The notes under the pieces: model-generated
The model's input: the letters and a program-made list of their open reading frames with translations, nothing else
The model's database searches: none
What the model was told of the DNA's origin: nothing
Shown here: piece by piece, positions 860 through 19,334 of the stretch
Position numbering within the stretch: position 1 is the stretch's first letter
How the letters are laid out: every line of letters starts with the position of its first letter
Source: a virus
IMG/VR virus record: IMGVR_UViG_3300010354_000668
Location: 1 to 23,692 of that record
Length of the DNA: 23,692 bases
Reading direction: 5' to 3' (one strand)
Position numbers and translations under genes: made by a program

Positions 860-876
860 GGCAAGATAGGCCCATG
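860..876 (+). promoter_or_regulatory. Late motif copy A, upstream of the capsid operon
   Basis: GGCAAGATAGGCCCATG lies 65 bp before the capsid ATG and just after the scaffold stop codon. It matches the repeated late-unit motif GGCAAnnTAGGn(n)ATG and is preceded by TG at close spacing (ATGATGTGGCAA). Read as an extended -10, CAAGAT keeps the A-11 and T-7 positions. No -35-like hexamer is apparent. Confidence 0.6.
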
Positions 877-933
877 AGGGGATGGCAGCGCCTAACCCAC
901 GGCCCTGCGGGCACACTGCACTTCATTCTGTGA
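874..933 (+). CDS. Possible 19-residue leader peptide before the capsid gene
   Basis: The ATG that ends motif copy A opens a short frame, MRGWQRLTHGPAGTLHFIL, stopping 7 bp before the capsid start at 941. It has no Shine-Dalgarno site. If the late motif is a promoter, this ATG would sit at the 5' end of the capsid mRNA. It contains the 11-mer CCCTGCGGGCA, which also occurs just before the scaffold ATG (181-191). It may be only a chance frame in the leader. Confidence 0.2.
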   Translation: MRGWQRLTHGPAGTLHFIL

Positions 934-940
934 ACCCACG

Positions 941-1963
941 ATGCCGACCACACGGTCAGACATTGTCATCCCTGAGATTTTTACCCCGTATTTGGAGGAG
1001 CAGACCACGCTGCGGAGCGCATTCCTGCAGTCGGGTATTGCCACCCCCATGGCGGAGCTCAATGCTGAGGAGGGCGGCGATTACCGCACCGTCCCCAGCT
1101 TCACCGCCAACCTGAGCGGCGACGCTGAGGTGATGCGTGATGATCGCTCGGCAACCCCGAGCAAGATTGGCGCCGAAAGCCAACGCGCCATCATCATGCA
1201 CCGCATCAAGGCATGGACCAGCCGCGATCTGGCCCGTATGGCTGCTGGTGCTGATCCGATGGCCGCCATTGGCAACAAGGCCGGCGCCTGGATCGCAAAC
1301 CAGCAGCAGAAGGATCTGCTGGCCATCCTTGATGGCTGCTTCGGCCCGCTGACCAGCAACACCACCGGCGCCCTCAAGGATCTTGCGGTTGATGATGGTG
1401 CCAGCGGTCAGGCCGTTCTTGGCCCGTCCACCGTGGCTCGCGTTCGCGCGACACTCGGTGATGCAGGCGGCAAGCTGACGACCTGTTGCATGCACTCGGC
1501 CATCTACTACGACCTCTACGAGAGGAAGGCGCTGGACTTCGTGACCGCTGCCGACACTGCTGGCAGCTTCCCGGATTCGGCCAATGATGCCGTCGGCGGC
1601 ACCTATCAGAACGCTTTCGGTCAGGTCGAAATCCCGATCTTCATGGGCATGCGCGTCATCGTTGATGACAGCGTTGCTGCTGTGAGCGGCAAGTATGCCG
1701 TTTACTTCTTCGCGCCTGGTGCCATTGGCACTGGCAATCAGCAGGGGCTGCGAACTGAAACCGATCGGGACATCCTGGCGAAGGAGGATGCCATGGCCGT
1801 TGACTGGCACAACGTCATGCACCCGATGGGCGTCAACTACAAGAGCACCGCTCCTGTGAATCCCGATCGGGATCAGCTGGCAACGGCTTCCAACTGGGAT
1901 CTGGTGTGGGAGCTGAAGAACATCGGCATCGCCCGTGCCACCGTGATCAGCAACTTCGATTGA
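941..1963 (+). CDS. Major capsid protein
   Basis: 340 residues, the expected length for an unprocessed HK97-fold coat protein. The sequence begins with the common coat-protein style TRSDIVIPEIFTPYLEEQT and continues with a helix-rich middle (TSRDLARMAAGADPMAAIG, then a QQQKDLLAIL stretch typical of the spine helix region). The C-terminal half holds a beta-rich segment (FMGMRVIVDDSVA) and a Gly/aromatic-rich end (HPMGVNYK), resembling gp13-like phage coat proteins. It assembles the icosahedral shell on the scaffold encoded just upstream. No N-terminal cleavage domain is evident. There is no clear Shine-Dalgarno site before the ATG; transcription probably starts at motif copy A. Confidence 0.85.
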   Translation: MPTTRSDIVIPEIFTPYLEEQTTLRSAFLQSGIATPMAELNAEEGGDYRTVPSFTANLSGDAEVMRDDRSATPSKIGAESQRAIIMHRIKAWTSRDLARMAAGADPMAAIGNKAGAWIANQQQKDLLAILDGCFGPLTSNTTGALKDLAVDDGASGQAVLGPSTVARVRATLGDAGGKLTTCCMHSAIYYDLYERKALDFVTAADTAGSFPDSANDAVGGTYQNAFGQVEIPIFMGMRVIVDDSVAAVSGKYAVYFFAPGAIGTGNQQGLRTETDRDILAKEDAMAVDWHNVMHPMGVNYKSTAPVNPDRDQLATASNWDLVWELKNIGIARATVISNFD

Positions 1964-1972
1964 GGAATCGCC

Positions 1973-2380
1973 ATGAGCCAACCTTCAACTTTTGACGCGC
2001 CTACCCAGGCGTACTTCACGGCCAGCCTCATCATGCTGGCCAATGCTGCCGTTGTGGATCAGGCGTTCTTCATTGCGCCTGAGCCCCTGGAGGTGGTGGA
2101 AATCCATGAGATCCACACCACCCTCGGCACCGGTGCTGGTGATGTGACCCTGCAGGTCGAACGGCTGCAGGGCACCGAGGCCCCCGGCGGCAACGGTGAT
2201 GCGCTGCTGGCAACCACGGTGGACCTGAAGGCAGCGAACAACACCCGTCAGTCGCCCGCGCTGACCGCCACCACCGCCAACCTGCAGCTCGCTGCAGGTG
2301 ACCGGCTGGGTGTGGACATCTCCGGCACTACCACTTCGGTGGCTGGTGTGCTGGTGACCGTGCTTCTGCGGCGGATCTGA
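1973..2380 (+). CDS. Putative capsid decoration or head-fibre-like protein
   Basis: 135 residues with a good Shine-Dalgarno site (GAGGA, 7 nt before ATG), 9 bp after the capsid gene. The protein is beta-rich, Thr/Ala/Gly-rich and almost Cys-free, with segments such as VTLQVERLQG and LQLAAGDRLGVDISG that suggest a jelly-roll-like surface fold. In many phages a small beta protein directly after the coat gene decorates the capsid, so that role is inferred. No specific family motif was recognised. Confidence 0.5.
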   Translation: MSQPSTFDAPTQAYFTASLIMLANAAVVDQAFFIAPEPLEVVEIHEIHTTLGTGAGDVTLQVERLQGTEAPGGNGDALLATTVDLKAANNTRQSPALTATTANLQLAAGDRLGVDISGTTTSVAGVLVTVLLRRI

Positions 2381-2610
2381 TGGGGATGTGGGGCTGGCGA
2401 CGGCTCCGCAGGCAGATGGAGGCAGCTGCTACGGCGGCTGCCTCTTCTGCTGCGTCGGGGCAACCTATGAACACCACTGGACAGGATGATGCTGGAACGC
2501 GAGGACTACGCGGGCGCGGAGGTGATCTCCGACACGACGCTGAGAACGGGCCGGTTCGGCGCGCTGCAGGCCGTGGCCGCCGCCGTGCTGGACACGGGGA
2601 CGGTGGTTGA
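2380..2610 (+). CDS. Doubtful small ORF bridging decoration and next head gene
   Basis: The ATG overlaps the previous stop codon by one base (TGATG). The frame encodes 76 residues, of which only the first 35 (2380-2485) lie outside the next gene; these include a Trp/Arg-rich start (MGMWGWRRLRRQME) and an Ala/Ser-rich helix. After 2486 the sequence reads as a low-complexity Arg/Gly frame, which looks like a shadow of the real gene there. Possibilities are a short real gene with a long overlap, an untranslated leader, or an N-terminal extension of the 2486 gene joined through a +1 frameshift. Confidence 0.3.
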   Translation: MGMWGWRRLRRQMEAAATAAASSAASGQPMNTTGQDDAGTRGLRGRGGDLRHDAENGPVRRAAGRGRRRAGHGDGG

Positions 2611-2722: not shown

Positions 2723-2725
2723 TAG

Positions 2726-3691
2726 GTGGATGCGATCGAGGTGTTCCTGCGGACCGCGCTGCAGCAGCGGCGGGTAGAGGATCGGCAGATCCGGGCAGCA
2801 CTGGCCAGTCTCCGGCCGGTGCTTTCCGATGTGGACCGCATCATCCGGGAGTCGGGCGCCTTGGAACCGGGGCCAGCACGCGAGCGGATCATCCGGGCAG
2901 TGTCGGACGTGATCGCCCGGCAGGTGCGTGATCAGTGGGGCATCCCGATGCTGGCCAGCCTGCAGGATGAGCTGAGCCCGTTTGTGGAGCAGCAGATGGG
3001 GCAGGCCCGGCGGCTGGTGGAAGCTGCCGGCGGCACACTGACCAACCCGGGCGCTGCAGTAGTGAATGTGCCGGCGATCGTAAATGGCGTGATCGTGAAC
3101 GGCCGGCCCCTCGGGGAGCAGCTGACCAGCAGCCTGCCGGCGAGCATCGCCGATCGGGCGGAGCGCTACATCCGGCTGGGGCTGAACGATCCGGGCGTTG
3201 AAGCCACGTTCGAGACGGCAGTGAGGACCACGGCCGAGAATGCGGTGGAGGCCACCATCCGCAGCGGTGTGCATAGCGTGGGCAGTGCTGCGCAGCAGGC
3301 GATCTACCAGTTCGAGACGGACCCCGACTGGCTGCAGGGCCGTTTCACCTGGACCGCAGTGCTCGACAGCAGGACGTGCCCGGTGTGCGTGGGGCAGGAT
3401 GGTACGGAACGTCTGCAGGACACCCCCGGAGCGTTCTGGGATGGCCAGCGGAAGATCGACCCGCACTTGAACTGCCGCTGCTACCTGATCCCCAGCACCT
3501 GGCGCGGTGAGGACAACCGCCGGATCGTGGTGGGCGACAGCGGCGAGCAGGTGGTGCCATTCCGCACGGATGTGGAGGGCTGGATCCGGCAGAACCCTGA
3601 TACCGCTGCGGAGATCTTCGGCAAGGCCCGCGCGAAGCGGCTGATCGATGGCGAGATCAGCCTTGACCGTGCGGTGCGTGAGGCAACCTAG
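2726..3691 (+). CDS. MuF-type minor head protein
   Basis: 321 residues from a GTG start at 2726, 4 bp after the preceding gene. The C-terminal half carries the Mu gpF-like signature. After FTWTAVLDSRTCPVCVGQDG come H247, C250 and C252 (PHLNCRCYLIP), so C218, C221, H247, C250 and C252 form a probable zinc-binding or structural cluster. The N-terminal 200 residues are helical and charged. MuF proteins are minor head components that interact with the portal and may enter the cell with the DNA. The gene stops with GCA ACC TAG, where the TAG belongs to late motif copy B. Confidence 0.8.
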   Translation: MDAIEVFLRTALQQRRVEDRQIRAALASLRPVLSDVDRIIRESGALEPGPARERIIRAVSDVIARQVRDQWGIPMLASLQDELSPFVEQQMGQARRLVEAAGGTLTNPGAAVVNVPAIVNGVIVNGRPLGEQLTSSLPASIADRAERYIRLGLNDPGVEATFETAVRTTAENAVEATIRSGVHSVGSAAQQAIYQFETDPDWLQGRFTWTAVLDSRTCPVCVGQDGTERLQDTPGAFWDGQRKIDPHLNCRCYLIPSTWRGEDNRRIVVGDSGEQVVPFRTDVEGWIRQNPDTAAEIFGKARAKRLIDGEISLDRAVREAT

Positions 3692-3697
3692 GGCATG
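3682..3697 (+). promoter_or_regulatory. Late motif copy B, upstream of the H1-like gene
   Basis: GGCAACCTAGGGCATG overlaps the stop codon of the MuF-type gene and precedes the next ATG (3711) by about 14 bp. Its core is identical to the minus-strand copy at 6943-6958. The ATG inside the motif opens only a three-codon frame (Met-Ile-Pro-stop), so the working start is the next ATG. Confidence 0.65.
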
Positions 3698-3710
3698 ATC
3701 CCCTGAGACT

Positions 3711-4187
3711 ATGGCCCGTTCCTATCGGCGTGATTCCAGTGGCAGGTTCTCCGGCGGCGGCGGGGGAGGTGGTGGCCGTAGCGGCGGCAAGCCGAAGACC
3801 ACCACCGCCAAGGGCCGGGCACGGACTGCGGAGGCCAGCGCACGGGCGCAGGTGAAGGCTGGCGGCGGCAGCAAGGCCACCCGCAGCCTGCTCACCGCTC
3901 AGCGGGCACGGGACTACTACAAGGCCACAGGGACCGGCACGAAGCGCAGCCCGGCGAAGGCCGCTGCTGCACCGGCAAAGGCCCCGGCCAAGGCTGCTGC
4001 CAAGCCAGCCGCGAAGATGGGCAAGGCCGCGCCCAACCCGGCGAAGCAGAAGTACCAGGCCGCTCGCAGCCAGGTTCGGGAGCTGAAGATGTACCGCGGC
4101 GGCAAGACCGATGCCGTGGTGAAGAAGGCCGAGGCCAAGGTGACCAGAATGGAGAAGAAGCGCAAGTCCAGCCGCGCACGGGTCTAA
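3711..4187 (+). CDS. Histone-H1-like basic DNA-binding protein
   Basis: 158 residues, very basic: I count about 42 Lys/Arg against about 7 Asp/Glu. The N-terminus has an eight-Gly run in an Arg/Ser/Gly region. The middle is built of Ala-Lys-Pro repeats (APAKAPAKAAAKPAAK) like the C-terminal tail of histone H1 and bacterial Hc1/AlgP-type proteins. The C-terminus is a charged helix (VVKKAEAKVTRMEKKRKSS). Such proteins bind DNA non-specifically and condense it. Encoded in the head module, it could help pack or eject the genome or compact host DNA. The first codons, ARSYRRDSSGRFSGG, resemble common phage structural leaders. Function is inferred from composition. Confidence 0.65.
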   Translation: MARSYRRDSSGRFSGGGGGGGGRSGGKPKTTTAKGRARTAEASARAQVKAGGGSKATRSLLTAQRARDYYKATGTGTKRSPAKAAAAPAKAPAKAAAKPAAKMGKAAPNPAKQKYQAARSQVRELKMYRGGKTDAVVKKAEAKVTRMEKKRKSSRARV

Positions 4188-4190
4188 TCC

Positions 4191-4757
4191 ATGCCTACAG
4201 CGATTGATGCCACGGTCGGCGGTGCTGCCGCGAACAGCTACATCACGGTGGCGGAGGGCACGTCCTATGCGGACGATGTGCTCGGAACCCTGAACTGGAC
4301 CACCGCGAGCGCGGATAACCGCACGCGGGCGCTGCTGGCCGCTACAGCACGGCTGGACGAGCTCAGCTGGATCGGCGAGCGTGCAGCGACCACACAGTCG
4401 CTGGCATGGCCCCGGAGTGCCGCTGAATGCGGCGAGCACAGCTACAGCACCTCCGAGATCCCAGCACCGGTGAAGCGGGCCTGCTGGGAGCTGGCGGAGC
4501 TGCTGCTGGGCGATGCCGATGCGTTCTCCACCGTGGCGCAGGTATCGGGCGAGCTGGTGCCTGGCATCCCGAACGCCAACCTGCGGAGCGCCAGCCTGGG
4601 CAATGGTGCGCTTGATCTGGAGTTCAAGGATGGCGGCGGCGCACCGCTCTACCGCAACGCGCTGAATGTGCTGCCATCGCTGGTGCCACTGCTAGGGTGT
4701 CTCTGCACCTCGGCTCCGGCATCGTCGGTTGGGACGGTACGGCTGGTGCGTGGATGA
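4191..4757 (+). CDS. DnaT-like head-tail connector (adaptor) protein
   Basis: 188 residues starting 3 bp after the H1-like gene. The N-terminus follows the DnaT-like phage family closely: AANSYITVAEGTSYADDV, then an Ala-rich helix with LLAATARLDELSWIGER, then SLAWPRS, then IPAPVKRACWELAELLL. Despite the family name, such proteins sit at the head-tail connector position after capsid genes and are thought to form the adaptor ring under the portal. The last 35 residues (LPSLVPLLGCLCTSAP) are atypical and may be a divergent tail. A strong hairpin terminator follows 12 bp after the stop. Confidence 0.7.
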   Translation: MPTAIDATVGGAAANSYITVAEGTSYADDVLGTLNWTTASADNRTRALLAATARLDELSWIGERAATTQSLAWPRSAAECGEHSYSTSEIPAPVKRACWELAELLLGDADAFSTVAQVSGELVPGIPNANLRSASLGNGALDLEFKDGGGAPLYRNALNVLPSLVPLLGCLCTSAPASSVGTVRLVRG

Positions 4758-4769
4758 ATGTGGGATGAC

Positions 4770-4797
4770 GCCCAGGGCTTCGGCTCTGGGCTTTCTC
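4770..4797 (+). terminator. Rho-independent terminator with UUCG loop
   Basis: GCCCAGGGC (4770-4778), loop TTCG (4779-4782), GCTCTGGGC (4783-4791), then TTTCTC. The stem is 9 bp with one G-U pair and the exceptionally stable C(UUCG)G tetraloop; the T-tract is short. It ends the head operon and isolates the sigma-like gene. Confidence 0.8.
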
Positions 4798-4807
4798 ATT
4801 GCGACCG

Positions 4808-4813
4808 TAGACT
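4808..4813 (+). promoter_or_regulatory. Possible -10 box of the sigma-like gene
   Basis: TAGACT fits the TAnnnT -10 pattern and ends 6 bp before the ATG at 4820, so transcription would begin at or next to the start codon. It lies just after the terminator that closes the head operon, so a separate promoter is needed here. It differs from the late motif (GCGACCGTAGACT rather than GGCAAnnTAGG), which would fit expression by host polymerase before the late units. Confidence 0.4.
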
Positions 4814-4819
4814 GCAGCG

Positions 4820-5356
4820 ATGCAACTGTCGCTGCTGGAGGAGCCCGCGCAACCGCCACCGAAGCGGGCCGGCAGCTGGCTGGCGACACCATTCAGCAAA
4901 CAGGAGCAGCGTGATGCCGGGCGGCTGTATGCGGAGAACATCAAGCTGATCCGATGGCTGGGCCACCGGCTGACGCGGCGGTTTTCGATGATGCGCCGGG
5001 AGGATGTCTACTCCTGCATCGACGTGGCATTTCTGAAGACATTCAGGGCATGGGATCCTGAGCGGGGAAAGCTGAGTACAATCCTTGAGAGGTTTGCGAG
5101 CGGTGAATGCTCGCATTTCGTGCGTGATCACAACTTCTCTGTTTCTGCCCCTGGCCATGTCCGGGATCTTGGCCGCCGGGCCCGCAAGCTGCTCGACATC
5201 GGGATGCCGGCCGCTCAGGTGTGTCGTGATCTTGGCATCACGACCGATAAGCTGCGCGAGGCGCTCGTTGCAACCAGCGGTGTGGACCATGAGACCAGGG
5301 ACTGGGCCATGCACGAATGCCCCAGGCCGACACCATGGGATGTGCTCACGGATTGA
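4820..5356 (+). CDS. Phage sigma-70-like factor, regions 2 and 3 only
   Basis: 178 residues. Residues 38-108 line up with sigma region 2: ENIKLIRWLGHRLTRRF (2.1), EDVYSCIDVAFLKTFRAWDP (2.2, core-binding), ERGKLSTILERF (2.3, DNA melting) and SGECSHFVRDH (2.4, -10 reading). SVSAPGHVRDLGRR follows the order of region 3.0 in sigma factors (there, IPVHM-type). Residues 128-150 (GMPAAQVCRDLGITTDKLREAL) form a helix-turn-helix like region 3.1. Region 4, which reads -35 boxes, is absent. Its own terminator and promoter isolate it, and a late motif copy starts one base after its stop. It probably directs host RNA polymerase core to late promoters lacking a -35; this role is inferred. A non-sigma HTH regulator is the alternative. 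Confidence 0.65.
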   Translation: MQLSLLEEPAQPPPKRAGSWLATPFSKQEQRDAGRLYAENIKLIRWLGHRLTRRFSMMRREDVYSCIDVAFLKTFRAWDPERGKLSTILERFASGECSHFVRDHNFSVSAPGHVRDLGRRARKLLDIGMPAAQVCRDLGITTDKLREALVATSGVDHETRDWAMHECPRPTPWDVLTD

Positions 5357-5376
5357 GGCAAGCTAGTAGGGCACTG
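5357..5376 (+). promoter_or_regulatory. Late motif copy C, upstream of the tail tube gene
   Basis: GGCAAGCTAGTAGGGCACTG begins at the first base after the sigma-like gene and ends 13 bp before the tail tube ATG. Compared with other copies it has a 3-bp insertion (TAG duplicated as TAGTAGGG) and CACTG in place of CATG, so it is the most divergent clear member. Confidence 0.55.
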
Positions 5377-5389
5377 ACACTGGATCACC

Positions 5390-6124
5390 ATGGCCGGCGA
5401 GTTTCTCGCGTTTGGGTATGAGCTGTACATCGGCGCGGGCACCACGTCGAGCAGCTACCCGACTGCTGTTGGGTCGCTGACCAAGGTCTACAACCTGACC
5501 AACGCACCGCTGGCGGGCACCAGCAACAGCACCAGCATCCTGGACTACGACTCTGACCCCGGCTGGACCCGCGACCGGGTGACCAGCGTTGGCTACAGCC
5601 TGCCGATCACCACGAACTTCAAGCCGAGCGATCCCGGCTACCGGATCCTCAAGGAGGCATTCGAGGAGGCCCCGAATGGTGCTGCGGTGCAGTTCTGGCT
5701 CAAGACCCCGGTGAAGGATGGTTCGGGTGATGACGGCGAGATCCATGCCGGCGTCGCCACTGTGACGGCCTTCGACCCCGGCAACACCGTGGGCGAGACC
5801 AGCACGATGAGTTTCACGCTGACGGGCTTTGGCCAGCTGAAGTGGTGGCCGCAGGGCAACCCGATCGCCACGCTGACCGTGACCACTGCCGGCTCGGGCC
5901 TGACGGCTGCGACCTACGACGATGTGGTGCTGATCGGCGGCAGCGGTGAGGGTGCTACGGCTGACATCACGGTCGCCGCTGGCGGCACTGTGACCACTGC
6001 ACCGACGATCATCCTGGGCGGCAGGAACTACGTCGTTGGTGACGTGCTGCAGGTTGCGCTGGCATCGGTGGGTGGCGCGGGCGCTGATGTGGCTCCCACG
6101 TTCACGGTGGCAACGGTCAGCTGA
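5390..6124 (+). CDS. Major tail tube protein
   Basis: 244 residues. Residues 1-160 read like a siphovirus tail tube subunit: beta-rich, with YELYIGAGTTSSS, DPGWTRDRVTSVGYSLPITT, DPGYRILKEAFEEAPNG and a closing strand TSTMSFTLTGFGQLKWW. These form the hexameric rings of the tail lumen. Residues about 163-244 are a separate Gly/Thr/Val-rich domain (TLTVTTAGSGL..., APTIILGGRNYVVGDVL), probably an Ig-like or beta-sandwich decoration on the tube surface. The stop is directly adjacent to the stop of the minus-strand neighbour (TGA|TCA). Expression is presumably from motif copy C. Confidence 0.75.
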   Translation: MAGEFLAFGYELYIGAGTTSSSYPTAVGSLTKVYNLTNAPLAGTSNSTSILDYDSDPGWTRDRVTSVGYSLPITTNFKPSDPGYRILKEAFEEAPNGAAVQFWLKTPVKDGSGDDGEIHAGVATVTAFDPGNTVGETSTMSFTLTGFGQLKWWPQGNPIATLTVTTAGSGLTAATYDDVVLIGGSGEGATADITVAAGGTVTTAPTIILGGRNYVVGDVLQVALASVGGAGADVAPTFTVATVS

Positions 6125-6550
6125 TCAGAGGCCGAGCGATCCGAGGCGGTTCCATTCGTCTCGGAAGAATCGTTCGATCGGGTGACGACTCAGTGCGGGG
6201 CTGATCCAGTCCCGTGCTGGGTAGTTGCGATCGGGGATCCCGTTGAGGATGTAGCCGGCATAGGTGACGCTGCCACCGCCCCAGACGAAGCGGATTTGTG
6301 TGGCCGTGTCGCGGCGCCGCACCTGGCTGTTGAGGAATGCGCCGGTGTCCACGATGTCGCGGGGGCTGCCGACCCTCCGGCCGTCGCTGCGCTCGGTCTC
6401 GCGTGGCCAGTCGTATTGCACGGCCCGGATCTGCTCCTTGAATTCAGGCCCGAGGCGGTCGGCATAGTTGGCCAGGATGACCGGTACCCTGTCCCGAAGC
6501 CTGTCACCACTCCACCCGCTCAGGTCCAGTTCTGCCCGGATGGTGGTCAT
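6125..6550 (-). CDS. HK97 gp10-like neck/tail-completion protein, inverted
   Basis: 141 residues on the minus strand; its ATG overlaps the preceding stop (ATGA). It has an N-terminal helical region (LRDRVPVILANYADRLGPEFKEQI), DTGAFLNSQVRRRDTATQIRF around residues 67-87, and YAGYILNGIPDRNYPARDWI with Trp/Pro motifs near the C-terminus. This order (helices, an aspartate-Thr/Ser-Gly turn, a central sheet, then a Pro-Ala-Arg loop) is typical of gp10-like proteins that join or complete the tail. In most phages this gene is co-directional with the tail tube gene; here it faces it, with no intergenic bases between the stops. Confidence 0.6.
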   Translation of the reverse strand: MTTIRAELDLSGWSGDRLRDRVPVILANYADRLGPEFKEQIRAVQYDWPRETERSDGRRVGSPRDIVDTGAFLNSQVRRRDTATQIRFVWGGGSVTYAGYILNGIPDRNYPARDWISPALSRHPIERFFRDEWNRLGSLGL

Positions 6551-6945
6551 GCAGCCTGCCGGTAGCGGACCAGGCGGATGCGATCACCCAGCACGGATTG
6601 CAGGGTGGATCCCAGAAGGCCGGTGGTGCCGAATGGTGTCCGGGCTTCGACCACTTCGCAGGGCATGGCAGTCTGACCGGCAAAGGTGAGTGTGCCAAGG
6701 GTGCCGGTTTGCACGCGAGCATCAAGGGCAACAGGATTGAGCACATAGCCATCGAACGCATCCCCTTCGATGTTGATGCCCGGCAGATCAGTGGGGCTGA
6801 TGGTGCCCTGGCGCAGGTAGAGGCTGATGGTGACGGTTTCGGTGTTCGCGCGGATGTTGCCCGTTACCGGATCGGTGGTGGTGCCGGTGGTGGGCAGGTT
6901 GAGGGTTGCCGTGGCATTAGCCAGGGCAGTGAGTGCGGAAGCCAT
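6547..6945 (-). CDS. Putative head-closure (stopper)-like neck protein, inverted
   Basis: 132 residues, first gene of a two-gene minus-strand unit. The ATG (6943-6945) is embedded in the minus-strand late motif. The protein is Thr/Gly/Val-rich and beta-predicted: TETVTISLYLRQG, then INIEGDAFDGYVLNPVALD, then VQTGTLGTLTFAGQTAMPCE, ending with FGTTGLLGSTLQSVLGDRI. Such small beta-barrels occur as head-closure or connector proteins next to gp10-like genes, the relation seen here. Family is inferred from fold pattern and neighbour, and no catalytic motif is present. Confidence 0.5.
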   Translation of the reverse strand: MASALTALANATATLNLPTTGTTTDPVTGNIRANTETVTISLYLRQGTISPTDLPGINIEGDAFDGYVLNPVALDARVQTGTLGTLTFAGQTAMPCEVVEARTPFGTTGLLGSTLQSVLGDRIRLVRYRQAA

Positions 6946-6958: not shown

Positions 6959-6974
6959 GGCAAAATAGGGTATG
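6959..6974 (+). promoter_or_regulatory. Late motif copy D-plus, driving the tape measure unit
   Basis: GGCAAAATAGGGTATG, with its last three bases being the tape measure ATG (6972). It differs from the abutting minus copy at three positions (AAA versus CCT-side bases and T versus C), so the pair is conserved by function and is not a perfect palindrome. Confidence 0.7.
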
Positions 6975-8951
6975 GCTGAGACACTGGGCACCGCTGAGCT
7001 GATCCTGACGGCGGATGCCACGCGGCTGCAGGCTGGGTTGAACCAGGCGCAGCGGCAGGCGCAGCAGACCGGCAGGGCGATTGAACAGTCGTTCACGAAG
7101 CCCGGTACGCGGATTGATGGAGCGGCTGCGCAGATCAGAAACGTAGGAGAGGAGGCCAGGCGAGCGAGCGGTGGAATTGGCTCGTTCGGCAGCCAAGTAG
7201 CCGGCCTGGCCAAGGAGATGGGGATTGCCGTATCGGCAACCGGTGCCCTTCTGTATGCCTTCAATCAGATCAAGGCCGCTGATGATGCCGGCGCTGCTGT
7301 GCGCACGCTCGGGGTGGATTCGGAGCAGCTGCGGTCGAAGCTGTCGGACCTCAGCCGCGAACTGGACGGCAGTGTCAGCACCCTGGATCTGCTCAAGGCT
7401 AGCTATGACGTGGCCTCCAGTGGCTTTGCAGATGCTGCGAGCGCAACTGACATCCTGAGGGCCTCGGCAGCTGGCGCAAAAGGCGGCTTTGCGGACATCA
7501 ACGAGGTGGCCAAGGCAACAACCGCCGTGCTCAATGCCTACGGCATGAGTTCCGCTGAGGCTGCCCGCGTGGTGGATGGTTTCGTTCAGGCACAAGCCGA
7601 CGGTGTGCTGACCGTGCGGCAGTATGCGGACAACATCGGTGAGATCGTGTCGGTTGCATCTGCCGCTGGCATCACGATCGAAGAACTGAACGCCGCCATC
7701 GCAACAGCCACCCTGAAGGGTGTGCAGGTGAACCAGGCATTCACCGGCTTTCGGCAGGTCATCAGCAGCATCCTCAAGCCATCCAAGGAAGCCACGGATT
7801 TGGCAACGTCGCTGGGTATTGACTACAGCCTGGCGGGGCTGCAGGCAAAGGGCTTTGCAGGCTTCCTGCAGGACGTGGCAGCCAAGACAGGTGCTGCCGC
7901 AGACAAGACAGCCATCCTGCTTGGCTCGGTCGAAGCACAGGCCGCATTGCAGCCGCTGCTCAATGACCAGCTCGCGAAATACAATGAGCTGCTGGAAAAG
8001 CAGGCCGAGAAAACCGGAGTCGCGGCAAAGGCGTCAAACGTTGCGACTGAGACAATCAGCGGCAACATCACCAAGATTCAGAACAAACTATCGAATCTGG
8101 TGCTCGAATACAGCAGCACCACGAATACAGCACTTGGCGACACGCTGTCGCTGGTCAATGACACGCTGACAGCACTTGAGAAGCTCGGGCGTGCGTTGCC
8201 AAAGGGCCAACAAGGTGGTGCCAGAAATGAAATCCTGCGGTTGATCGGTGCTACTGCCCCTGGTGCTGGCCCTGGAGGCATTGGCACTATTTACGATGTG
8301 GCCAGAGACTTTATCGGAAGGCTGTTCGGCGGAGGCCAACCGCCGCAACAGCAGCAATCGAAGCCGCAGGAAGCACAGCAGGCACAGCAGGCGGGGGGCT
8401 CTGGGACATTCGGCCCGACCAGTGCCGAAAGCGATGCCTTCTGGTCACGGGTGAAAGAACTGCGTCAAAACGACCTGATCATCGCAAAAGAGCAGGTCAA
8501 GATTGCAACCGAGTTGAAGTCACTGGCGGGAGCAGTCCGCAGTGCTGCGCAATCGCTCCTGGAGGCTCGCCAAGGCTTCGCCGGTGCCGTCGGCCAGTCG
8601 TTTGCCATCGCCACCAATGAGCAACGCCTGAGGGCGCGGCAGATCAACGAAGAACGGATCCGTGCAGCGGAGCGGTCCGGCGCGTTTGATCCGGCACGGG
8701 TTGCCACCCGCTACGGCCTGGAGCAGACCGGCGCTGGCCTCAACCTGCAGAGCCTGACCTTCCGCCAACTGGAGCGCCTGGCGGGAGAGGTGGGCACCTT
8801 GGCTGACGCTGAAACCAACCTGCAAACCGCGATGCGAGACAACACCCTCGCCCTGAATCAGCTGGCAAAACGGAGGTGGGAGGTGCAGGTCAACGTCCGC
8901 AACAACGCTAACGGCACCACAGCCGTGGACTATGTGAACAACCTCCGATGA
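6972..8951 (+). CDS. Tail tape measure protein (TP901 family)
   Basis: 659 residues. The N-terminus (GTAELILTADATRLQAGLNQ) and the core at about residues 110-300 match TP901-type tape measures: a SYDVASSGFADAASATDIL helix, ATTAVLNAYGMSSAEAARVV, QYADNIGEIVSVASAAGI and GFRQVISSILKPSKEA. A Gln/Ala-rich linker near residues 455-475 is followed by coiled coil. The protein spans the tail lumen and sets tail length; with the usual ~1.5 A per residue, about 100 nm is expected (inference). The start codon is the ATG at the end of motif D-plus; no Shine-Dalgarno site precedes it. The tail assembly chaperone normally encoded just upstream is missing here and lies at 15100. Confidence 0.9.
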   Translation: MAETLGTAELILTADATRLQAGLNQAQRQAQQTGRAIEQSFTKPGTRIDGAAAQIRNVGEEARRASGGIGSFGSQVAGLAKEMGIAVSATGALLYAFNQIKAADDAGAAVRTLGVDSEQLRSKLSDLSRELDGSVSTLDLLKASYDVASSGFADAASATDILRASAAGAKGGFADINEVAKATTAVLNAYGMSSAEAARVVDGFVQAQADGVLTVRQYADNIGEIVSVASAAGITIEELNAAIATATLKGVQVNQAFTGFRQVISSILKPSKEATDLATSLGIDYSLAGLQAKGFAGFLQDVAAKTGAAADKTAILLGSVEAQAALQPLLNDQLAKYNELLEKQAEKTGVAAKASNVATETISGNITKIQNKLSNLVLEYSSTTNTALGDTLSLVNDTLTALEKLGRALPKGQQGGARNEILRLIGATAPGAGPGGIGTIYDVARDFIGRLFGGGQPPQQQQSKPQEAQQAQQAGGSGTFGPTSAESDAFWSRVKELRQNDLIIAKEQVKIATELKSLAGAVRSAAQSLLEARQGFAGAVGQSFAIATNEQRLRARQINEERIRAAERSGAFDPARVATRYGLEQTGAGLNLQSLTFRQLERLAGEVGTLADAETNLQTAMRDNTLALNQLAKRRWEVQVNVRNNANGTTAVDYVNNLR

Positions 8952-13194: not shown

Positions 13195-13209
13195 GGCAAG
13201 CTAGGGGCA
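13195..13209 (+). promoter_or_regulatory. Late motif copy E, upstream of tail accessory unit
   Basis: GGCAAGCTAGGGGCA lies just after the tail-tip stop and 14 bp before the next ATG (13223). It keeps GGCAA, TAGGGG and a preceding GTGAC, but has CACGAG in place of CATG, so the unit starts at the downstream ATG. No Shine-Dalgarno site precedes that ATG. Confidence 0.6.
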
Positions 13210-13222
13210 CGAGTGAGCACCC

Positions 13223-13651
13223 ATGGCGACCTACAACAAGTTCCACCAGTTCCCGGAGGATCTGGCGAAGAAAATCCACAACCTCAGCGCGGACAGCCTG
13301 AAGGTCTACCTGAGCAACAGCACCCCGTCCGCGAGCGATGATGCCGTCAAAGCCGACCTGGCCGAGATCAGCACCGGCAACGGTTACAGCGGACCGCTGG
13401 CAATCACGATCACCAGCTGTGAGCAGACCGGCGGCACCCTCAAGCTGATCCTGGCCGACCCGGCACTGATTACCGCGAGCGGTGGCAGCATTGGCCCGTT
13501 TCGGTATGTGGTGCTGTTCAACGACACCCCGACCAGCCCAGCAGATCCGCTGATTGCCTGGTGGGATTACGGCTCGGCATTTACGCTGGCCGATACGCAG
13601 ACCTTCCAGATTGACTTCAGCGCCGCCAATGGCGTCCTGACGATCGCCTGA
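13223..13651 (+). CDS. Tail-region structural protein, unknown exact role
   Basis: 142 residues. The opening YNKFHQFPEDLAKKIHNLSADSLKVYLSNSTPSA, followed by KADLAEISTGNGYSG and a beta-rich remainder ending FQIDFSAANGVLTIA, matches a widespread family of small phage virion proteins in tail modules whose function is not established. The middle holds FRYVVLFNDTPTSPADPLIAWWDYG. It is the first gene of the unit after motif copy E and is followed 3 bp later by a structurally similar beta protein. Confidence 0.7.
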   Translation: MATYNKFHQFPEDLAKKIHNLSADSLKVYLSNSTPSASDDAVKADLAEISTGNGYSGPLAITITSCEQTGGTLKLILADPALITASGGSIGPFRYVVLFNDTPTSPADPLIAWWDYGSAFTLADTQTFQIDFSAANGVLTIA

Positions 13652-13654
13652 CCC

Positions 13655-14984: not shown

Positions 14985-15100
14985 TCACTCCCGCCCAGCT
15001 GTTGGAGATTGCCCGTCTGGTGCAGGCTGCCAACCGCCAAGCATTGCTGAGGCGTGAGGATGCCCAGCGTATGCTCAAGCAATCTGCCACCCGCCGCTGA
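14981..15100 (+). CDS. Small 39-residue helical protein
   Basis: The ATG overlaps the preceding stop by 4 nt (ATGA) and its own stop overlaps the next ATG (TGATG). The 39-residue product reads as one amphipathic helix (PAQLLEIARLVQAANRQALL) with a basic end (MLKQSATRR). Tight coupling on both sides supports a real gene, possibly a tail-assembly accessory peptide. No family was recognised. Confidence 0.55.
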   Translation: MITPAQLLEIARLVQAANRQALLRREDAQRMLKQSATRR

Positions 15101-15621
15101 TGGATCCGCTGATCGTTGGTAATCTCACCATCCCCCGTTATGGCTACATCACGGTGGAGGAAGACGATCTGATCGCTGATCTGCTGGATGCCGAGCAGTC
15201 GCCATTGGTCAAGGCTGCCCAGCTGGCTGATGCGGTGGCCCTGGCTGAGGGCATCACGATCCTGGAGGCCTACAAGGTCATCGGTGACGCGATCGACGGC
15301 AAACGACTGGAACCTGAGGCTGAGGCGATCCGCTTGCGGCACGCTGAGGCCATCCATGCCGCAACCCGTGCCCTCAGTGCTGCCGGTACTGCCCGGATTC
15401 GTGCATCGGTTACCGCGATCCTCCGCGAGCGGTGCGGGATGGCCGGCATCCCTGCCCGCTGGCCACGGAAACACCGCGATGCGGTCTGGCAACTGGTGCA
15501 GGAGGAGCAGGCAGCCGAAAACATGCCCGTGCAGCCGGTGACTGAGGAGCTGCTGGGAAAGCCGCTGCCGGCCGATGGTCCCCAGACCCCGGCCGATGGC
15601 GTGACCGATTCTGGGAGCTAG
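15100..15621 (+). CDS. Tail assembly chaperone, zero-frame (gpG-like) product
   Basis: 173 residues, ATG coupled to the previous stop (TGATG). The body is helical and acidic, consistent with a gpG-like chaperone that coats the tape measure: IPRYGYITVEEDDLIADLLD, then a long Ala-rich helical stretch. The codons at 15553-15561 form CTG GGA AAG, containing the lambda-type slippery heptamer G GGA AAG. Ribosomes that do not slip continue to the TAG at 15619-15621, and the last ~20 residues in this frame (PLPADGPQTPADGV...) are low complexity. The role is inferred from the frameshift site and the -1 frame extension; position, far from the tape measure, is atypical. Confidence 0.7.
   Translation: MDPLIVGNLTIPRYGYITVEEDDLIADLLDAEQSPLVKAAQLADAVALAEGITILEAYKVIGDAIDGKRLEPEAEAIRLRHAEAIHAATRALSAAGTARIRASVTAILRERCGMAGIPARWPRKHRDAVWQLVQEEQAAENMPVQPVTEELLGKPLPADGPQTPADGVTDSGS
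15555..15594 (+). promoter_or_regulatory. Programmed -1 ribosomal frameshift site
   Basis: GGGAAAG at 15555-15561 is in the phase G GGA AAG relative to the 15100 frame, identical to the phage lambda G/GT slippery site. It is followed after 8 nt by a possible stem: GGCC (15570-15573) and GGTC (15577-15580), loop CCCA, then GACC (15585-15588) and GGCC (15591-15594), with a small internal loop. A -1 slip continues through the whole -1 frame to 16193 with no stop. Confidence 0.8.
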
Positions 15622-16193
15622 CCCATGCGTTCCCGGGCCAATTCACGCGGGCCGGCTGGCGGCTTGAGGCACGCCGCACAGTCCGCGAGGCATGGGATGC
15701 CTGGCAGGCAATCCAGCGGCAGCGGGCGCACCTGGCAGAGGTGCCGATCGCTCAGCTGACGGCACTGATGAGGAACGTGAACACCGTGAGCGGCCAGCCT
15801 GCCTCGCCGGCCGACTTCCTGCTGTTCGATCGACCGGAGCCCGATCGGCAGTTCAGCGCTGAGGTGGCGGCAGTGCTGCTGGCACTGGAGCAGGAGGGCA
15901 GATCTGAACCGCTGCTGCGGGTGGTGTGGCAGCAGGTCAAGGCTGCGGCCGACCCTGCGGCACAGGTGCCGCCGATCAGGGCCTGGCGCTCGGATTGCGG
16001 TGATGTGTGGCTGGTGTGCCCCGTGCGCGAGGGCGAGGCCGTGCGTGCGGGGCTGGTGGCCGTGGGCACCTGCAACCCAGGCACCGTGACCATGCGCGAT
16101 GTGGACCGGCCGCTGATGGCCTATCAGGTGACCATCCCAAATCGCCCACTAGCCGGCTGGTTTGAGGCGGGCCTGCTGCTGCGGGCAACCTAG
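15561..16193 (+). CDS. Tail assembly chaperone frameshift extension (gpT-like)
   Basis: This frame is open from the slippery site to the TAG at 16191-16193, adding about 210 residues; with the first 154 codons of the chaperone the fusion is about 364 residues. The region before the GTG at 15741 is plainly coding (RFWELAHAFPGQFTRAGWRL, then VREAWDAWQAIQRQRAHLAE), so that GTG is not the true start. Around residue 230 of the fusion, SPADFLLFDRPEPDRQFS resembles the proline-Asp-Phe-Leu-X-Phe motif common in gpT-like parts. The downstream domain is beta-rich (DVWLVCPVREGEAVRAGLV) and ends LLLRAT. The fusion product would bind both tape measure and tail tube. The stop TAG is part of motif copy F. 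Confidence 0.75.
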   Translation, partial: AAAGRWSPDPGRWRDRFWELAHAFPGQFTRAGWRLEARRTVREAWDAWQAIQRQRAHLAEVPIAQLTALMRNVNTVSGQPASPADFLLFDRPEPDRQFSAEVAAVLLALEQEGRSEPLLRVVWQQVKAAADPAAQVPPIRAWRSDCGDVWLVCPVREGEAVRAGLVAVGTCNPGTVTMRDVDRPLMAYQVTIPNRPLAGWFEAGLLLRAT

Positions 16194-16199
16194 GCCATG
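16184..16199 (+). promoter_or_regulatory. Late motif copy F, upstream of the fibre unit
   Basis: GGCAACCTAGGCCATG overlaps the TAG stop of the chaperone and ends with the ATG (16197-16199) of the next gene. Such placement means the predicted mRNA would have essentially no 5' leader. Preceded by CTGCTGCG, which is near the TG-containing upstream context shared by other copies. Confidence 0.65.
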
Positions 16200-16697
16200 A
16201 CCGCGATCCTGGATCTCCGCACAGCCCTCACCACGGCGCTCAATGGCTTGCTGGGCACCTACACGCTGGCGAATGCCACCACCACCCCGGCGGTGGATGT
16301 GCGGGCCATTGGCGAGGGCCGTGAGACCGGCACCAGCGTGACGGGCCTAGAGCTGGTGATCCAACGCGACCCGGCGATCGTGCCGATCCGGGCGCAGGAG
16401 GTCGAATCGGTCTTCATGGAGTGGACTGCCTTCATCGTCGAATGGGCCAACCCGGCAACCACTGCAGCCGATGCCGCACGCATCGTGGTGGCCAGCATTC
16501 CAGGGTGCTCGGCTGAGGTTGTGGCGGTACCGGAGAACACCGGGCCGAAGCATCAGATGCGGCTGGTGATCAGGCAAGCTAGCGCAGCCACTGCAACCGA
16601 TCTGACGCTGGGGGTGGCAGAAGTCACCTACCTGACCACGTTGGATGGCACCTACATCACAACCCTCGACGGCACCCGCCTGGTGATCAATGCCTGA
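16197..16697 (+). CDS. Putative tail terminator/completion protein
   Basis: 166 residues starting directly on motif copy F. It has an N-terminal helix (LRTALTTALNGLLGTYTL), a beta core (GLELVIQRDPAIVPIRAQEV, FMEWTAFIVEWANP), then another helix (AADAARIVVASIPG) and a final sheet. This helix-strands-helix-strands pattern with a Trp-containing strand is like tail terminator proteins, which cap the tube end before it joins the head. The last 20 residues contain a twofold TLDGT repeat, which is unusual for terminators. In most phages this gene is near the tail tube gene; here it follows the displaced chaperone, so the assignment is tentative. Confidence 0.45.
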   Translation: MTAILDLRTALTTALNGLLGTYTLANATTTPAVDVRAIGEGRETGTSVTGLELVIQRDPAIVPIRAQEVESVFMEWTAFIVEWANPATTAADAARIVVASIPGCSAEVVAVPENTGPKHQMRLVIRQASAATATDLTLGVAEVTYLTTLDGTYITTLDGTRLVINA

Positions 16698-18102
16698 AAC
16701 CACTATCACGGGGCTGCCGAACGCGACGACGCCGCTCAGCGGGTCTGAGCGGGTGCCGATGGATCAGGCCGGCACCACGAAGGATGCCACCACGCAGGAC
16801 ATCGCGAACCTGGCACCGGGGACGAACCTGAGCTTCACGCAGAGCACCCGAACGCTGGCCAGCAGCACTGGTGACGATGTGGTGCTGCCGCTGGCAACCG
16901 ACAGTCTGCCGGGCCTGATGACTGCGGCCGACAAGCTGCGCATCGATCAGCTGGGGGCAGATGATTCCCCCAGCTTCGCCGGCCTGACGATCACCGGCAG
17001 TGATGCGGTGACGATCCCGCACATCCACGGCGAGCTGGCCGGCCCGGTCTACATCCATGTCAAACAGACTGGCGCGACAACGCTGGCCAAGGGCACGCCG
17101 GTCTACGTCACCGGCGCCGTGGGTGACACCTCCACGCTGGAGGTGCAGGCGGCTGATGCGAGCGATCCGGCGAAGATGCCGGCGATCGGCCTGCTCGGCT
17201 CCAGCCTGGCGCAGAACGCCACCGGCCACGCGATCGTTGCGGGTGAACTGCTGAACGCCGCGACCGGCAGCTATGGCGTGGGCGATGCGCTGTACGTGGC
17301 GGCCGGCGGCGGGTTGACGGCGACGAGGCCAACGAGCGGCACGATCCAGCAGGTTGCCATCGTCGGCCGGGTGAACGCCAGCACTGGCAGCCTCACAGCA
17401 ACGATCGGCAGCCAGCAGGATCCGAACTGGGACACGGCCTATAGCCAGCGGCTGCGGTGGGATGGTGGCGCCACAGGGCTTGATGCTGCGACCGGCCGCA
17501 CCAGCCTGGGGTTGGGCACACTGGCCACGCAATCGGGCACGTTCAGCGGCTCCAGCTCCGGCACGAACACAGGGGATGTGACCCTGGCGGCCAGCGTTAC
17601 GGATGTGCTGGACCTCAGCGGGCAGGAACTGCGGGCCGATGACCCGGGCGCGGATCGGATCCTCTTCTGGGACGACTCGGAGGGCAAGCTCCGTCATCTG
17701 TCACTGGCCGGCGGGCTGAGCATCTCGGGCACGGTGCTCACGGTGCCGGTTGAGCTCGGCCTGGCCTGCTCGGATGAGGACACGGCGCTAACCACCGGCA
17801 CGGCCAAAGTGTCGTTCCGGATGCCCTACGCCATGACGCTGACGGCGGTGCGGGCCTCAGTGAAGACTGCGCCGACCGGCTCCACGCTGGTGGTGGACAT
17901 CAACGAGGCGGGGACCAGCGTGCTTTCCACGAAGCTGAGCATCGACGCCAACGAGAAGACCAGCACGACGGCCGCGACCGCTGCGGTGATCAGTGACGCC
18001 AGCTTGGCGGATGACGCTGAGATCACCATCGACATCGACCAGATCGGCGCGACAATCGCCGGCGCTGGTCTCAAGGTCTGGTTGATCGGGGTGAGGCTAT
18101 GA
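16690..18102 (+). CDS. Tail fibre protein
   Basis: 470 residues, start overlapping the previous gene by 8 nt. It opens with a common tail-fibre start (TTITGLPNATTPLSGSERVP). Residues 100-240 form a Gly/Ala/Thr-rich beta section (VYIHVKQTGATTLAKGTPVY, then VGDALYVAAGGGLTATRP). Near residue 255 is the widespread fibre signature RLRWDGGATGLDAATGRTSL with GTFSGSSSGTNTGDVTL after it. The C-terminal third is another Thr/Val-rich beta domain ending GLKVWLIGVRL. It likely forms a trimeric fibre for host binding. The following LamG gene overlaps by 4 nt. Confidence 0.75.
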   Translation: MPETTITGLPNATTPLSGSERVPMDQAGTTKDATTQDIANLAPGTNLSFTQSTRTLASSTGDDVVLPLATDSLPGLMTAADKLRIDQLGADDSPSFAGLTITGSDAVTIPHIHGELAGPVYIHVKQTGATTLAKGTPVYVTGAVGDTSTLEVQAADASDPAKMPAIGLLGSSLAQNATGHAIVAGELLNAATGSYGVGDALYVAAGGGLTATRPTSGTIQQVAIVGRVNASTGSLTATIGSQQDPNWDTAYSQRLRWDGGATGLDAATGRTSLGLGTLATQSGTFSGSSSGTNTGDVTLAASVTDVLDLSGQELRADDPGADRILFWDDSEGKLRHLSLAGGLSISGTVLTVPVELGLACSDEDTALTTGTAKVSFRMPYAMTLTAVRASVKTAPTGSTLVVDINEAGTSVLSTKLSIDANEKTSTTAATAAVISDASLADDAEITIDIDQIGATIAGAGLKVWLIGVRL

Positions 18103-18791
18103 CCAGCTTCCTGATCAATCCGTACAGGTTCACGGCAGCTGGTGATCCGTACTTCTCCAGCGTCTCGCTGCTGCTCCACGGCGATGGCACCAATGGCAGC
18201 ACCACGATCACCGACAGCAGCGGCAGCCCCAAGACCGTCACGGCTTTCGGCAACGCACAGATCAGCACGGCGCAGAGTAAGTTCGGCGGGGCGTCAATCG
18301 CGTTTGATGGCAACGGCGATTATCTGACGGTTGGCGCAAACAGTGCTCTTTCGTTTGGATCCAACCCGTTCACCATTGAAACGTTTGCTTACTTCAGTTC
18401 ATCTGCAAACATGGCCCTGTACGATACGCTGCCGATCGGTGGCGCCGGGGTAAGAAACAGCGGGTTTGTACTTATTAAAGACAATACGAATAGGCTAAAT
18501 GTATTTAGTGCGGGCGGCTTTCGGGGAGTCTCCTCCATCTCGGCTCCCATTGGCCAATGGTGCTACATCGCTCTGACCAAATCCGGCAGTACATGGTCGT
18601 ACCAAATTGACAACCAGCCAGCCGGATCATTCACTTATGCGTTCTCACCTACGGACAATAATGCCACGATCGGCAGGCTTGGCGATGGAGCCGATTACTA
18701 CATCAATGGATACCTAGATGAATGTCGAGTGACCAATGGCGTGGCCCGCGACGTGTCAACGGTCCCGACCGCCCCGTTCCCCGACAGCTGA
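18099..18791 (+). CDS. LamG-domain tail fibre or adhesin
   Basis: 230 residues covered almost entirely by one LamG-like jelly roll: SVSLLLHGDGTNGSTTITDS, a strand with YLTVGANSALSFGSNPFTIE, then WCYIALTKSGSTWSYQIDNQ and the closing motif GYLDECRVTNGVARD. These features match the C-terminal domain of the 11841 gene, so the two are related adhesins. The DNA from about 18320 to 18720 is richer in A/T and uses codons such as ATA, TTA, AAT and AAA that are rare upstream, suggesting recent acquisition of the binding domain. It overlaps the fibre gene (ATGA) and is likely expressed with it. Confidence 0.75.
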   Translation: MTSFLINPYRFTAAGDPYFSSVSLLLHGDGTNGSTTITDSSGSPKTVTAFGNAQISTAQSKFGGASIAFDGNGDYLTVGANSALSFGSNPFTIETFAYFSSSANMALYDTLPIGGAGVRNSGFVLIKDNTNRLNVFSAGGFRGVSSISAPIGQWCYIALTKSGSTWSYQIDNQPAGSFTYAFSPTDNNATIGRLGDGADYYINGYLDECRVTNGVARDVSTVPTAPFPDS

Positions 18792-18794
18792 CCC

Positions 18795-19328
18795 ATGCGC
18801 CTCCTCTACGACCAGCAGACCGCCGCGCTGCGGCCCTATCCCCGGCCGGATGATGAGCCCGTGGTGGGCCTCGATCCGCGCTACATCAGCATGGCGCTGA
18901 TCCAGGAACCGCAGCCCGCCTACGACCCCGCCACCGAGCGGCTTGAGCCCACCGAGGCGATCGACCTCGATGCCCTCACGGTGACCCGTGGCTGGGCCAT
19001 CATCCCGATTGAGCCCCCCGCCCCGCCGGAGCCCGCGCCCGACTGGTTGGGGTTCGCCGGTTGGCTCTACGGCTACGAGCCGATGGCCGCTGCGATGGAG
19101 GCCGCGCGTGCCAGCCGTGACCCGCAGGGCGAGCCCGCGACCACGGGCCTGCCGGCCGCGATGGATGAGGCCCGCCTGCGCTCGAACTACGTCCCGTTCG
19201 CCCTGTCGTGGGGCCTGTTCCTCGCGGCCTCCGGCCTGCCGCCCGATGAGGTGGGCGCCATCGTCGCCCGCGCGACCGAGTGCCATCTGCCCGCGCAGTT
19301 CGTCGCGGCATTGCAGCCGGCAACCTAG
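18795..19328 (+). CDS. Fibre-accessory-like protein, unknown function
   Basis: 177 residues, 3 bp after the LamG gene. It starts RLLYDQQTAALRPYPRPDDE, with a Pro/Glu-rich middle (IIPIEPPAPPEPAPDWLGFA) and a helical end rich in Ala/Leu (PFALSWGLFLAASGLPPDE, ATECHLPAQFVAALQPAT). This layout, directly after fibre genes, resembles a tail-fibre assembly or chaperone protein, but no family was recognised. The stop is GCA ACC TAG, whose TAG belongs to motif copy G. No signal peptide is evident. Confidence 0.6.
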   Translation: MRLLYDQQTAALRPYPRPDDEPVVGLDPRYISMALIQEPQPAYDPATERLEPTEAIDLDALTVTRGWAIIPIEPPAPPEPAPDWLGFAGWLYGYEPMAAAMEAARASRDPQGEPATTGLPAAMDEARLRSNYVPFALSWGLFLAASGLPPDEVGAIVARATECHLPAQFVAALQPAT

Positions 19329-19334
19329 GTCATG
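19319..19334 (+). promoter_or_regulatory. Late motif copy G, upstream of the lysis unit
   Basis: GGCAACCTAGGTCATG overlaps the TAG stop of the preceding gene and ends with the ATG (19332-19334) of the first lysis-region gene. The preceding bases are TTGCAGCC. It repeats the pattern seen in copies B and F, where the previous gene ends Ala-Thr-stop. Confidence 0.65.

Follow-up and report, generated by a model that had tools for sequence, protein, structure and literature searches.

The DNA analyzed here, referred to as the window, is a whole stretch of 23,692 bases from an IMG/VR viral contig (IMGVR_UViG_3300010354_000668). It has no end repeats and is therefore probably a fragment, and its genes encode head, neck, tail, and lysis functions. 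Here, we describe a short oriented motif, GGCAANNTAGG (GGCAAnnTAGG), which heads gene units on both strands as a candidate late promoter, and the product of a small sigma factor gene at 4820-5356, which is proposed to read it. An initial annotation of the window had reported eight copies of the motif, which are as follows:

860..874, plus strand: motif copy GGCAAGATAGGCCCA, 5' of the major head protein gene (941-1963; phrog_247)
3682..3695, plus strand: motif copy GGCAACCTAGGGCA, 29 nt 5' of gene 3711-4187; includes the TAG stop of gene 2726-3691; conserved in the related contig L005 at 1707
5357..5373, plus strand: motif copy GGCAAGCTAGTAGGGCA, directly 3' of the sigma gene stop and 5' of the major tail protein gene (5390-6124); orthologous copies in L005, L018, and L040
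6945..6958, minus strand: motif copy GGCAACCTAGGGCA, for the leftward genes 6547-6945 and 6125-6550; ATG from motif position 14
6959..6972, plus strand: motif copy GGCAAAATAGGGTA, for the tape measure gene (6972-8951); abuts the leftward copy in the opposite orientation
13195..13209, plus strand: motif copy GGCAAGCTAGGGGCA, 28 nt 5' of gene 13223-13651; counterpart in L005 at 11376
16184..16197, plus strand: motif copy GGCAACCTAGGCCA; the ATG of gene 16197-16697 is position 14
19319..19332, plus strand: motif copy GGCAACCTAGGTCA, heading small genes and the endolysin gene (20024-20764); ATG is position 14

All eight positions were confirmed. Seven copies are exact (860, 3682, 6959, 13195, 16184, and 19319 on the plus strand and 6958 on the minus strand), and the eighth, at 5357 on the plus strand, reads GGCAAGCTAGT, with a single mismatch. 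For exact copies, the seven observed compare with a mean of 0.068 and a maximum of 2 in 400 first-order Markov simulations. When up to one mismatch was allowed, 13 copies were observed, versus a mean of 3.5 and a maximum of 8 in shuffled sequence. Every one of the eight reported copies lies 13 to 81 nt 5' of a gene start on the same strand (binomial p = 7e-11), a zone that makes up 5.4% of the strand-positions in the window. Copies 3682, 16184, and 19319 each include the TAG with which the preceding gene ends, and the ATG stands exactly at the motif end (position 14) in four window copies. The 5357 copy also carries a 3-nt TAG duplication (TAGTAGGGCA, versus TAGGGCA at position 1125 of the near-identical phage L004), a natural spacing variant of the proposed promoter. 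Further sites in the window were as follows:

157..165, plus strand: one-mismatch variant TGTAGCCTA, 34 nt 5' of the scaffold gene ATG at 191
2459..2472, plus strand: extra motif copy GGCAACCTATG / GGCAACCTATGAAC, 27 nt 5' of the ATG at 2486; rank 4 with an independent position weight matrix (PWM)
16573..16586, plus strand: motif copy GGCAAGCTAGC / GGCAAGCTAGCGCA, within gene 16197-16697 and 117 nt 5' of gene 16690; an exception

The initial annotation had stated that each copy heads a run of genes and that no good copy lies inside a run. The first part stood, with all eight copies upstream of gene starts, whereas the second did not strictly hold, given the 16573 copy, and the 2459 copy had been overlooked. 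The ATG had been taken as part of the motif. This view had to be given up, because the pattern with a fixed ATG (GGCAANNTAGGNATG, three mismatches allowed) matched no better than chance; in addition, copies 5357 and 13195 have no ATG, and relatives keep the motif with the start codon 28-31 nt away instead of 13 nt. The hexamer CCTAGG does occur only within four motif copies, as had been noted, but it is not rare for the window (4 matches versus a shuffle mean of 2.85).

The motif was conserved in related phages. In L005, whose sigma factor is 72% identical to that of the window, each comparable copy is retained while the flanks have diverged. In two further clades, in which the sigma factor shares 45-49% identity with that of the window, the counterparts of the scaffold, head, major tail, and tape measure genes are preceded by copies; those of the scaffold gene in L018 and L040 are perfect (GGCAAGCTA and GGCAACCTA). 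The back-to-back pair between the tape measure gene and the leftward genes is conserved in L005, L015, L018, and L020, with a spacer of 0 in the window and its sister clade and of 11 nt in L005. For the two genes of this pair, the motif lies 13 and 13 nt from the start in the window, whereas these distances in the sister clade are 31 and 28 nt. The motif thus stays where the start codon moves, and it is tied to DNA or transcription instead. A further copy is found in the near-identical contig L001, 5' of an open reading frame (ORF) of 496 amino acids in the portal position, with the ATG at position 14. In the window-like contigs (sigma factors 45-72% identical), GGCA-N2-CTA and GCAA-N2-TAG were the top de novo upstream words, and the motif was enriched 33.5-fold in the region 12-60 nt 5' of ORFs (p = 2e-22).

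A similar result was obtained for cultured phages. The sigma factors of S-CBS2, S-CRES1, and P-SS2 are only about 28% identical to that of the window (27-28% for P-SS2). In an unbiased search for gapped words upstream of annotated genes, GGAA/GGCA-N2-CTA was among the leading words in each of these three genomes (p = 1e-11 to 1e-20); the same search returned no word at threshold in KBS-S-2A and only weak AT-rich words in P-HS2. Plus/minus counts of GGHANNCTA were 36/4 in S-CBS2, 30/4 in S-CRES1, 18/1 in P-SS2, and 31/5 in S-CRES3, versus 6/3 in KBS-S-2A, 3/5 in S-H1, 6/2 in P-HS2, 1/0 in S-CBS1, and 0/0 in S-CBS3. The motif was concentrated in the structural block, where it precedes 25 of 41 genes in S-CBS2 (4 of 48 elsewhere; p = 9e-8), 20 of 43 in S-CRES1 (2 of 53 elsewhere; p = 5e-7), and 10 of 33 in P-SS2 (6 of 87 elsewhere; p = 0.002). 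Across 45 dereplicated S-CBS2-like contigs, it was enriched 14-fold in the region 12-60 nt 5' of ORFs (p = 4e-36), while cyanosiphoviruses lacking this sigma factor, the negative set, gave 1.1-fold, that is, no enrichment. Motifs with altered spacing or letters gave about 0- to 2-fold, apart from one value of 5.6-fold that came from a single upstream hit. When a PWM built from the cultured phages only was run on the window, its nine best hits included six of the eight reported copies.

The sigma factor gene and the features next to it are as follows:

4770..4791, plus strand: terminator-like hairpin of 9 pairs followed by a T-rich tail, just 5' of the sigma gene
4806..4814, plus strand: CGTAGACTG, directly 5' of the sigma gene; conserved in L005
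4820..5356, plus strand: phage sigma factor P0001 (178 amino acids), SigF/SigB-like (group 3), with regions 2 and 3; proposed motif reader
4823..4837, plus strand: codons for QLSLL (sigma residues 2-6), a putative beta-sliding-clamp-type peptide at the N terminus

The product of gene 4820-5356 is a SigF-like sigma factor in which regions 2 and 3 are present and region 4 is not detectable. P0001 matches the sigma factor family phrog_351 (E = 3e-11) and, in PDB, SigB (8x6g_H). Its best NCBIfam matches, though weak, are SigBFG and SigF, over profile positions ~30-120 of 258, and Pfam finds Sigma70_r2 only, under the curated cutoff; the same domain is above cutoff for the L005 and P-SS2 sigma factors. 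A 30-row profile of P0001 matches SigB/SigF at E = 9e-14, with region 3 visible in the profile alignment. The AlphaFold2 model from this alignment has a predicted local distance difference test score (pLDDT) of 75, versus 64 for a poor earlier model from five rows. Its top Foldseek match is again 8x6g_H, SigB (probability 1.00, E = 2e-3), and the other top matches are sigma factors; the global template modeling score is ~0.38, probably because the domain orientation differs. Pfam detects no region 4 in the sigma factors of the window, L005, L018, S-CBS2, S-CRES1, or P-SS2, while regions 1.2, 2, 3, and 4 are all detected in the KBS-S-2A sigma factor, used as a control.

The logo of 35 window-like sites reads GG[C/A]AA[C/G]CTAGG, followed by C and then by A at about positions 13-15, and the core common to the relatives is GG[A/C]AnnCTAG. 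For the window phage and its relatives together, the motif can be written as a GG[C/A]AAnCTAG core plus a pyrimidine-A some 13-15 nt after its first G. No conserved -35 element was found in the 63 cultured-phage and 35 window-like sites, and the 30 nt upstream hold at most modest information per position. This bears out the initial annotation, which had seen no -35 box. Its suggestion that CAAnnT serves as the -10 element also fits the geometry: with transcription beginning close to the A located 13-14 nt from the first G, CAAnnT would have its A and T near positions -11/-10 and -6/-7. The TG that it had noted upstream, a candidate for an extended -10 element, was rejected, as it is not conserved over the 35 related sites and in some copies is merely the TGA stop of the previous gene. 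Sigma-70-type promoters in the window are at chance level (2 found versus 3.2 expected). The late promoter of phage T4 is TATAAATA; only one match, with one mismatch, was found in the window against a chance expectation of 0.49, and the T4 late box was rejected as absent.

Thus, the motif is very probably a late promoter consisting of a -10 element only, read by the host RNA polymerase together with the phage's own SigF-derived sigma factor. A phage-specific late promoter lacking a -35 box, as first suggested by the initial annotation, remains the best reading, since the motif tracks the SigF-type phage sigma factor and sits in the late structural block. It draws on the observed excess, position, and conservation of the motif over divergent phages, its co-occurrence with the sigma family, the missing -35 element, and the failure to detect region 4 in the sigma factors. 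The host polymerase carrying the small phage sigma factor would recognize the motif through region 2, which would have been kept for -10 recognition and core binding, along with region 3; with region 4 lost, the promoter could do without a -35 element. The probable start of transcription is close to motif position 14, and the four window genes with ATG at this position would then have transcripts that are leaderless or nearly so. With less certainty, the terminal clamp peptide of the sigma factor may couple late transcription to DNA replication.

Alternatively, the motif might be an operator or a stoperator-like site for a phage repressor or activator. The stoperators of mycobacteriophages are likewise asymmetric, strand-aware repeats at gene junctions (PMC9283540), and both they and the start-associated sequences (SAS) are short, oriented, and close to gene starts (PMC9283540, PMC3203893); moreover, P-SS2 has an integrase. 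However, those elements differ in sequence, and the phage motif lies at a variable distance from the start codon and is distributed with the sigma family, not with a repressor. It heads units on both strands, as in the conserved divergent pair, is concentrated in the late block, and has -10-like letters in a window where no other promoter-like element is visible. An operator explains less of this than a promoter does, and we consider it very unlikely. It is very unlikely that the motif is a host-type promoter, namely, a -10 element for the host principal or SigF sigma factor, with the phage sigma factor incidental. A host SigF might read a similar -10 element, given that the Synechocystis SigF promoter includes GGTAA at -12 (PMC2758279), and TAGGnn is superficially like a TAnnnT -10 element. 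Yet a host SigF promoter additionally requires TAGGC at -32 (PMC2758279), which is absent from the phage sites, and TAGGnn as the -10 element would place starts ~6 nt beyond the ATG of four genes. In addition, cyanosiphoviruses without this sigma factor do not use the motif, as seen in KBS-S-2A (whose sigma factor has regions 1.2-4), S-CBS1 (1 hit), S-CBS3 (0 hits), and P-HS2. A role in translation, either in ribosome binding or as a start-associated sequence comparable to the cluster K mycobacteriophage SAS, is hardly credible: four window copies do end exactly at ATG and the SAS is also immediately upstream of starts (PMC3203893), but start codons lie 13-81 nt away in the window, the motif is kept where they have shifted in the sister clade, and it contains no Shine-Dalgarno core.

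Several points weigh against the promoter reading. The good copy at 16573 sits inside gene 16197-16697. P0001 falls under the curated cutoffs of both Pfam and NCBIfam and was assigned on the combined PHROG, profile, and structure matches. The C at motif position 7 is absent from copies 860 and 6959, which were ranked 19th and beyond the top 25, respectively, by the cultured-phage matrix, which was built from sites forced to C at this position. The negative set is small (S-H1, KBS-S-2A, P-HS2, and the fragments L002 and L003), and L002 and L003 are too short to establish that the sigma factor is absent. S-PM2, S-CBWM1, and Cr-LKS4 are also rich in GGHANNCTA words, counted regardless of placement. 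Finally, binding of the sigma factor to the motif, promoter activity, start site, and timing are all inferred from sequence.

Most of the sigma factors also carry a terminal peptide of the sliding-clamp type. At the N terminus, it is MQLSLL in the window, MQLQLF in L005, QLNMF or QLSML in the sister clade, and QLSLF in the third clade; QLSLF has been described as the complete consensus for binding to the beta sliding clamp (PMC4549789). In the main S-CBS2-like group, a C-terminal QxxLF (once QxxVF) was found in 34 of 34 sequences with a long C terminus. We tentatively suggest that the peptide tethers the polymerase to the replication clamp and so links late transcription to replication. It is about equally possible that the likeness is coincidental or that the peptides make another contact, for example, with the RNA polymerase flap or an anti-sigma factor. 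The peptides are recognized here by sequence, several sigma factors have none, and QLNMF and QLSML match only three of five consensus positions. On the other hand, Q and F are invariant in all 34 sequences at the extreme C terminus despite a divergent linker (pairwise identity of only 41-49%), and a near-consensus peptide stands at the opposite end in another clade. Equal similarity is rare elsewhere, with 5 N-terminal and 2 C-terminal cases among ~1155 other proteins of these phages. Further counting against the coupling part of the mechanism, the peptide is missing in S-CBS2 (with a shortened C terminus), in P-SS2-type sigma factors, and in L094/L095, yet S-CBS2 and P-SS2 have the promoter motif. 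The S-CBS2 sigma factor gp077 (L010 19989-20609) has 206 amino acids and no QxxLF tail, whereas its relatives in S-CRES1-3 have 244 and keep the tail, which offers a natural comparison for clamp dependence.

As reported previously, T4 late transcription uses the sigma factor gp55, the coactivator gp33, and the sliding clamp gp45, and gp55 consists of sigma domain 2, a divergent linker, and a terminal clamp epitope (PMC2988020). The system described here is similar in having a small phage sigma factor without region 4 and late promoters without a -35 element. By sequence, most members also have a conserved, putative clamp epitope at one terminus, joined by a divergent linker; in the S-CBS2-like group it is C-terminal, like that of gp55. 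Unlike gp55, the phage sigma factor is SigF-derived and keeps region 3, the promoter is GG[C/A]AnnCTAG instead of TATAAATA, and the peptide resembles those that bind bacterial beta clamps (QxxLF), with an N-terminal position in the window's group. No gp33 or phage clamp was identified in the window, which is a fragment and was not searched systematically for them. We propose that the likeness to the gp55 system is a similarity of design, not membership. Cyanosiphoviruses may have evolved replication-coupled late transcription independently of T4, a possibility to which we give slightly less than an even chance: a SigF of host type, with region 4 lost and a beta-clamp-binding peptide acquired, at the N terminus in one lineage and the C terminus in another, would let the clamp replace -35 anchoring at -10-only GG[C/A]AnnCTAG promoters. 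Should the peptide indeed act on the clamp, coupling of late transcription to replication would not be a peculiarity of T4 but a solution reached repeatedly with different components.

In the cyanobacterial SigF regulon, the pilA1 promoter has TAGGC at -32 and GGTAA at -12 (PMC2758279). The phage system is similar in that NCBIfam SigF/SigBFG are among the best sigma matches and GGnAA resembles the -12 GGTAA. It differs in the missing -32 element (63 and 35 sites), the extra CTAG downstream, and the lack of a detected region 4. For P-SS2, a "type III rpoS" group 3 sigma factor was predicted to serve a particular regulon; its authors reported BPROM sigma-70 promoters only and named no cognate promoter (PMC2784084). 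The P-SS2 sigma factor is a distant relative of the window sigma factor and lacks the clamp-type peptide. In the literature searched, subscription papers and supplementary files aside, no cognate promoter is named for the group 3 sigma factors of cyanosiphoviruses. The motif is probably the promoter of the predicted P-SS2 regulon and would supply the cognate promoter for the group 3 cyanosiphovirus sigma factors whose regulon was predicted in 2009. It also allows late units to be predicted in many uncultured contigs, and the sigma factor and motif together are a possible orthogonal expression tool for cyanobacteria.

The sigma gene itself may form its own unit, transcribed from another type of promoter that is perhaps active earlier, and CGTAGACTG probably represents this other class. 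In L005, the sigma gene is likewise preceded by an inverted repeat and then by CCCGTAGACTG. The hairpin at 4770 is only suggestive, as terminator-like hairpins in the window number 11 versus 9.1 expected. A second word family, TG[AG]TAnnCTG, is frequent upstream of genes in S-CBS2-like contigs (L045-L106) and also stands directly 5' of the S-CBS2 sigma gene (S-CBS2 56800). It resembles an extended -10 element and may drive the sigma gene and its neighbors. It was not adopted as a second genome-wide promoter class, because these contigs are all centered on the sigma gene and in complete genomes the number of such sites upstream of genes is only 0-5.

The window virus likely infects picocyanobacteria, since its major head protein shares 48-55% identity with those of S-H1, KBS-S-2A, and P-HS2, siphophages of marine Synechococcus or Prochlorococcus. 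A search of genome contigs for the window-type sigma factor returned no host or prophage match. For the S-CBS2-type sigma factor, the sole match was L044 (DGOV01000074.1), a contig of a metagenome-assembled genome labeled Proteobacteria UBA4457, with a sigma factor 71% identical and motif copies present; it is probably a misbinned cyanophage contig.

An Rfam search of the window gave no match. At 15555-15561, a slippery heptamer, G_GGA_AAG, overlaps a -1 frame open from 15546, and the downstream frame of this region (15100-16193) has a weak Phage_tail_T match (E = 0.013). This suggests a frameshifted tail assembly chaperone like lambda G/GT, as a candidate unusually far downstream from the tape measure gene. 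Directly 5' of the scaffold gene, a near-exact tandem repeat of ~60 bases (GGTGCCGAAGGCTGCCCCGGTGAAGGTGCCGGCC...) occurs in the window at 1-100 and in L001 at 4180-4310.

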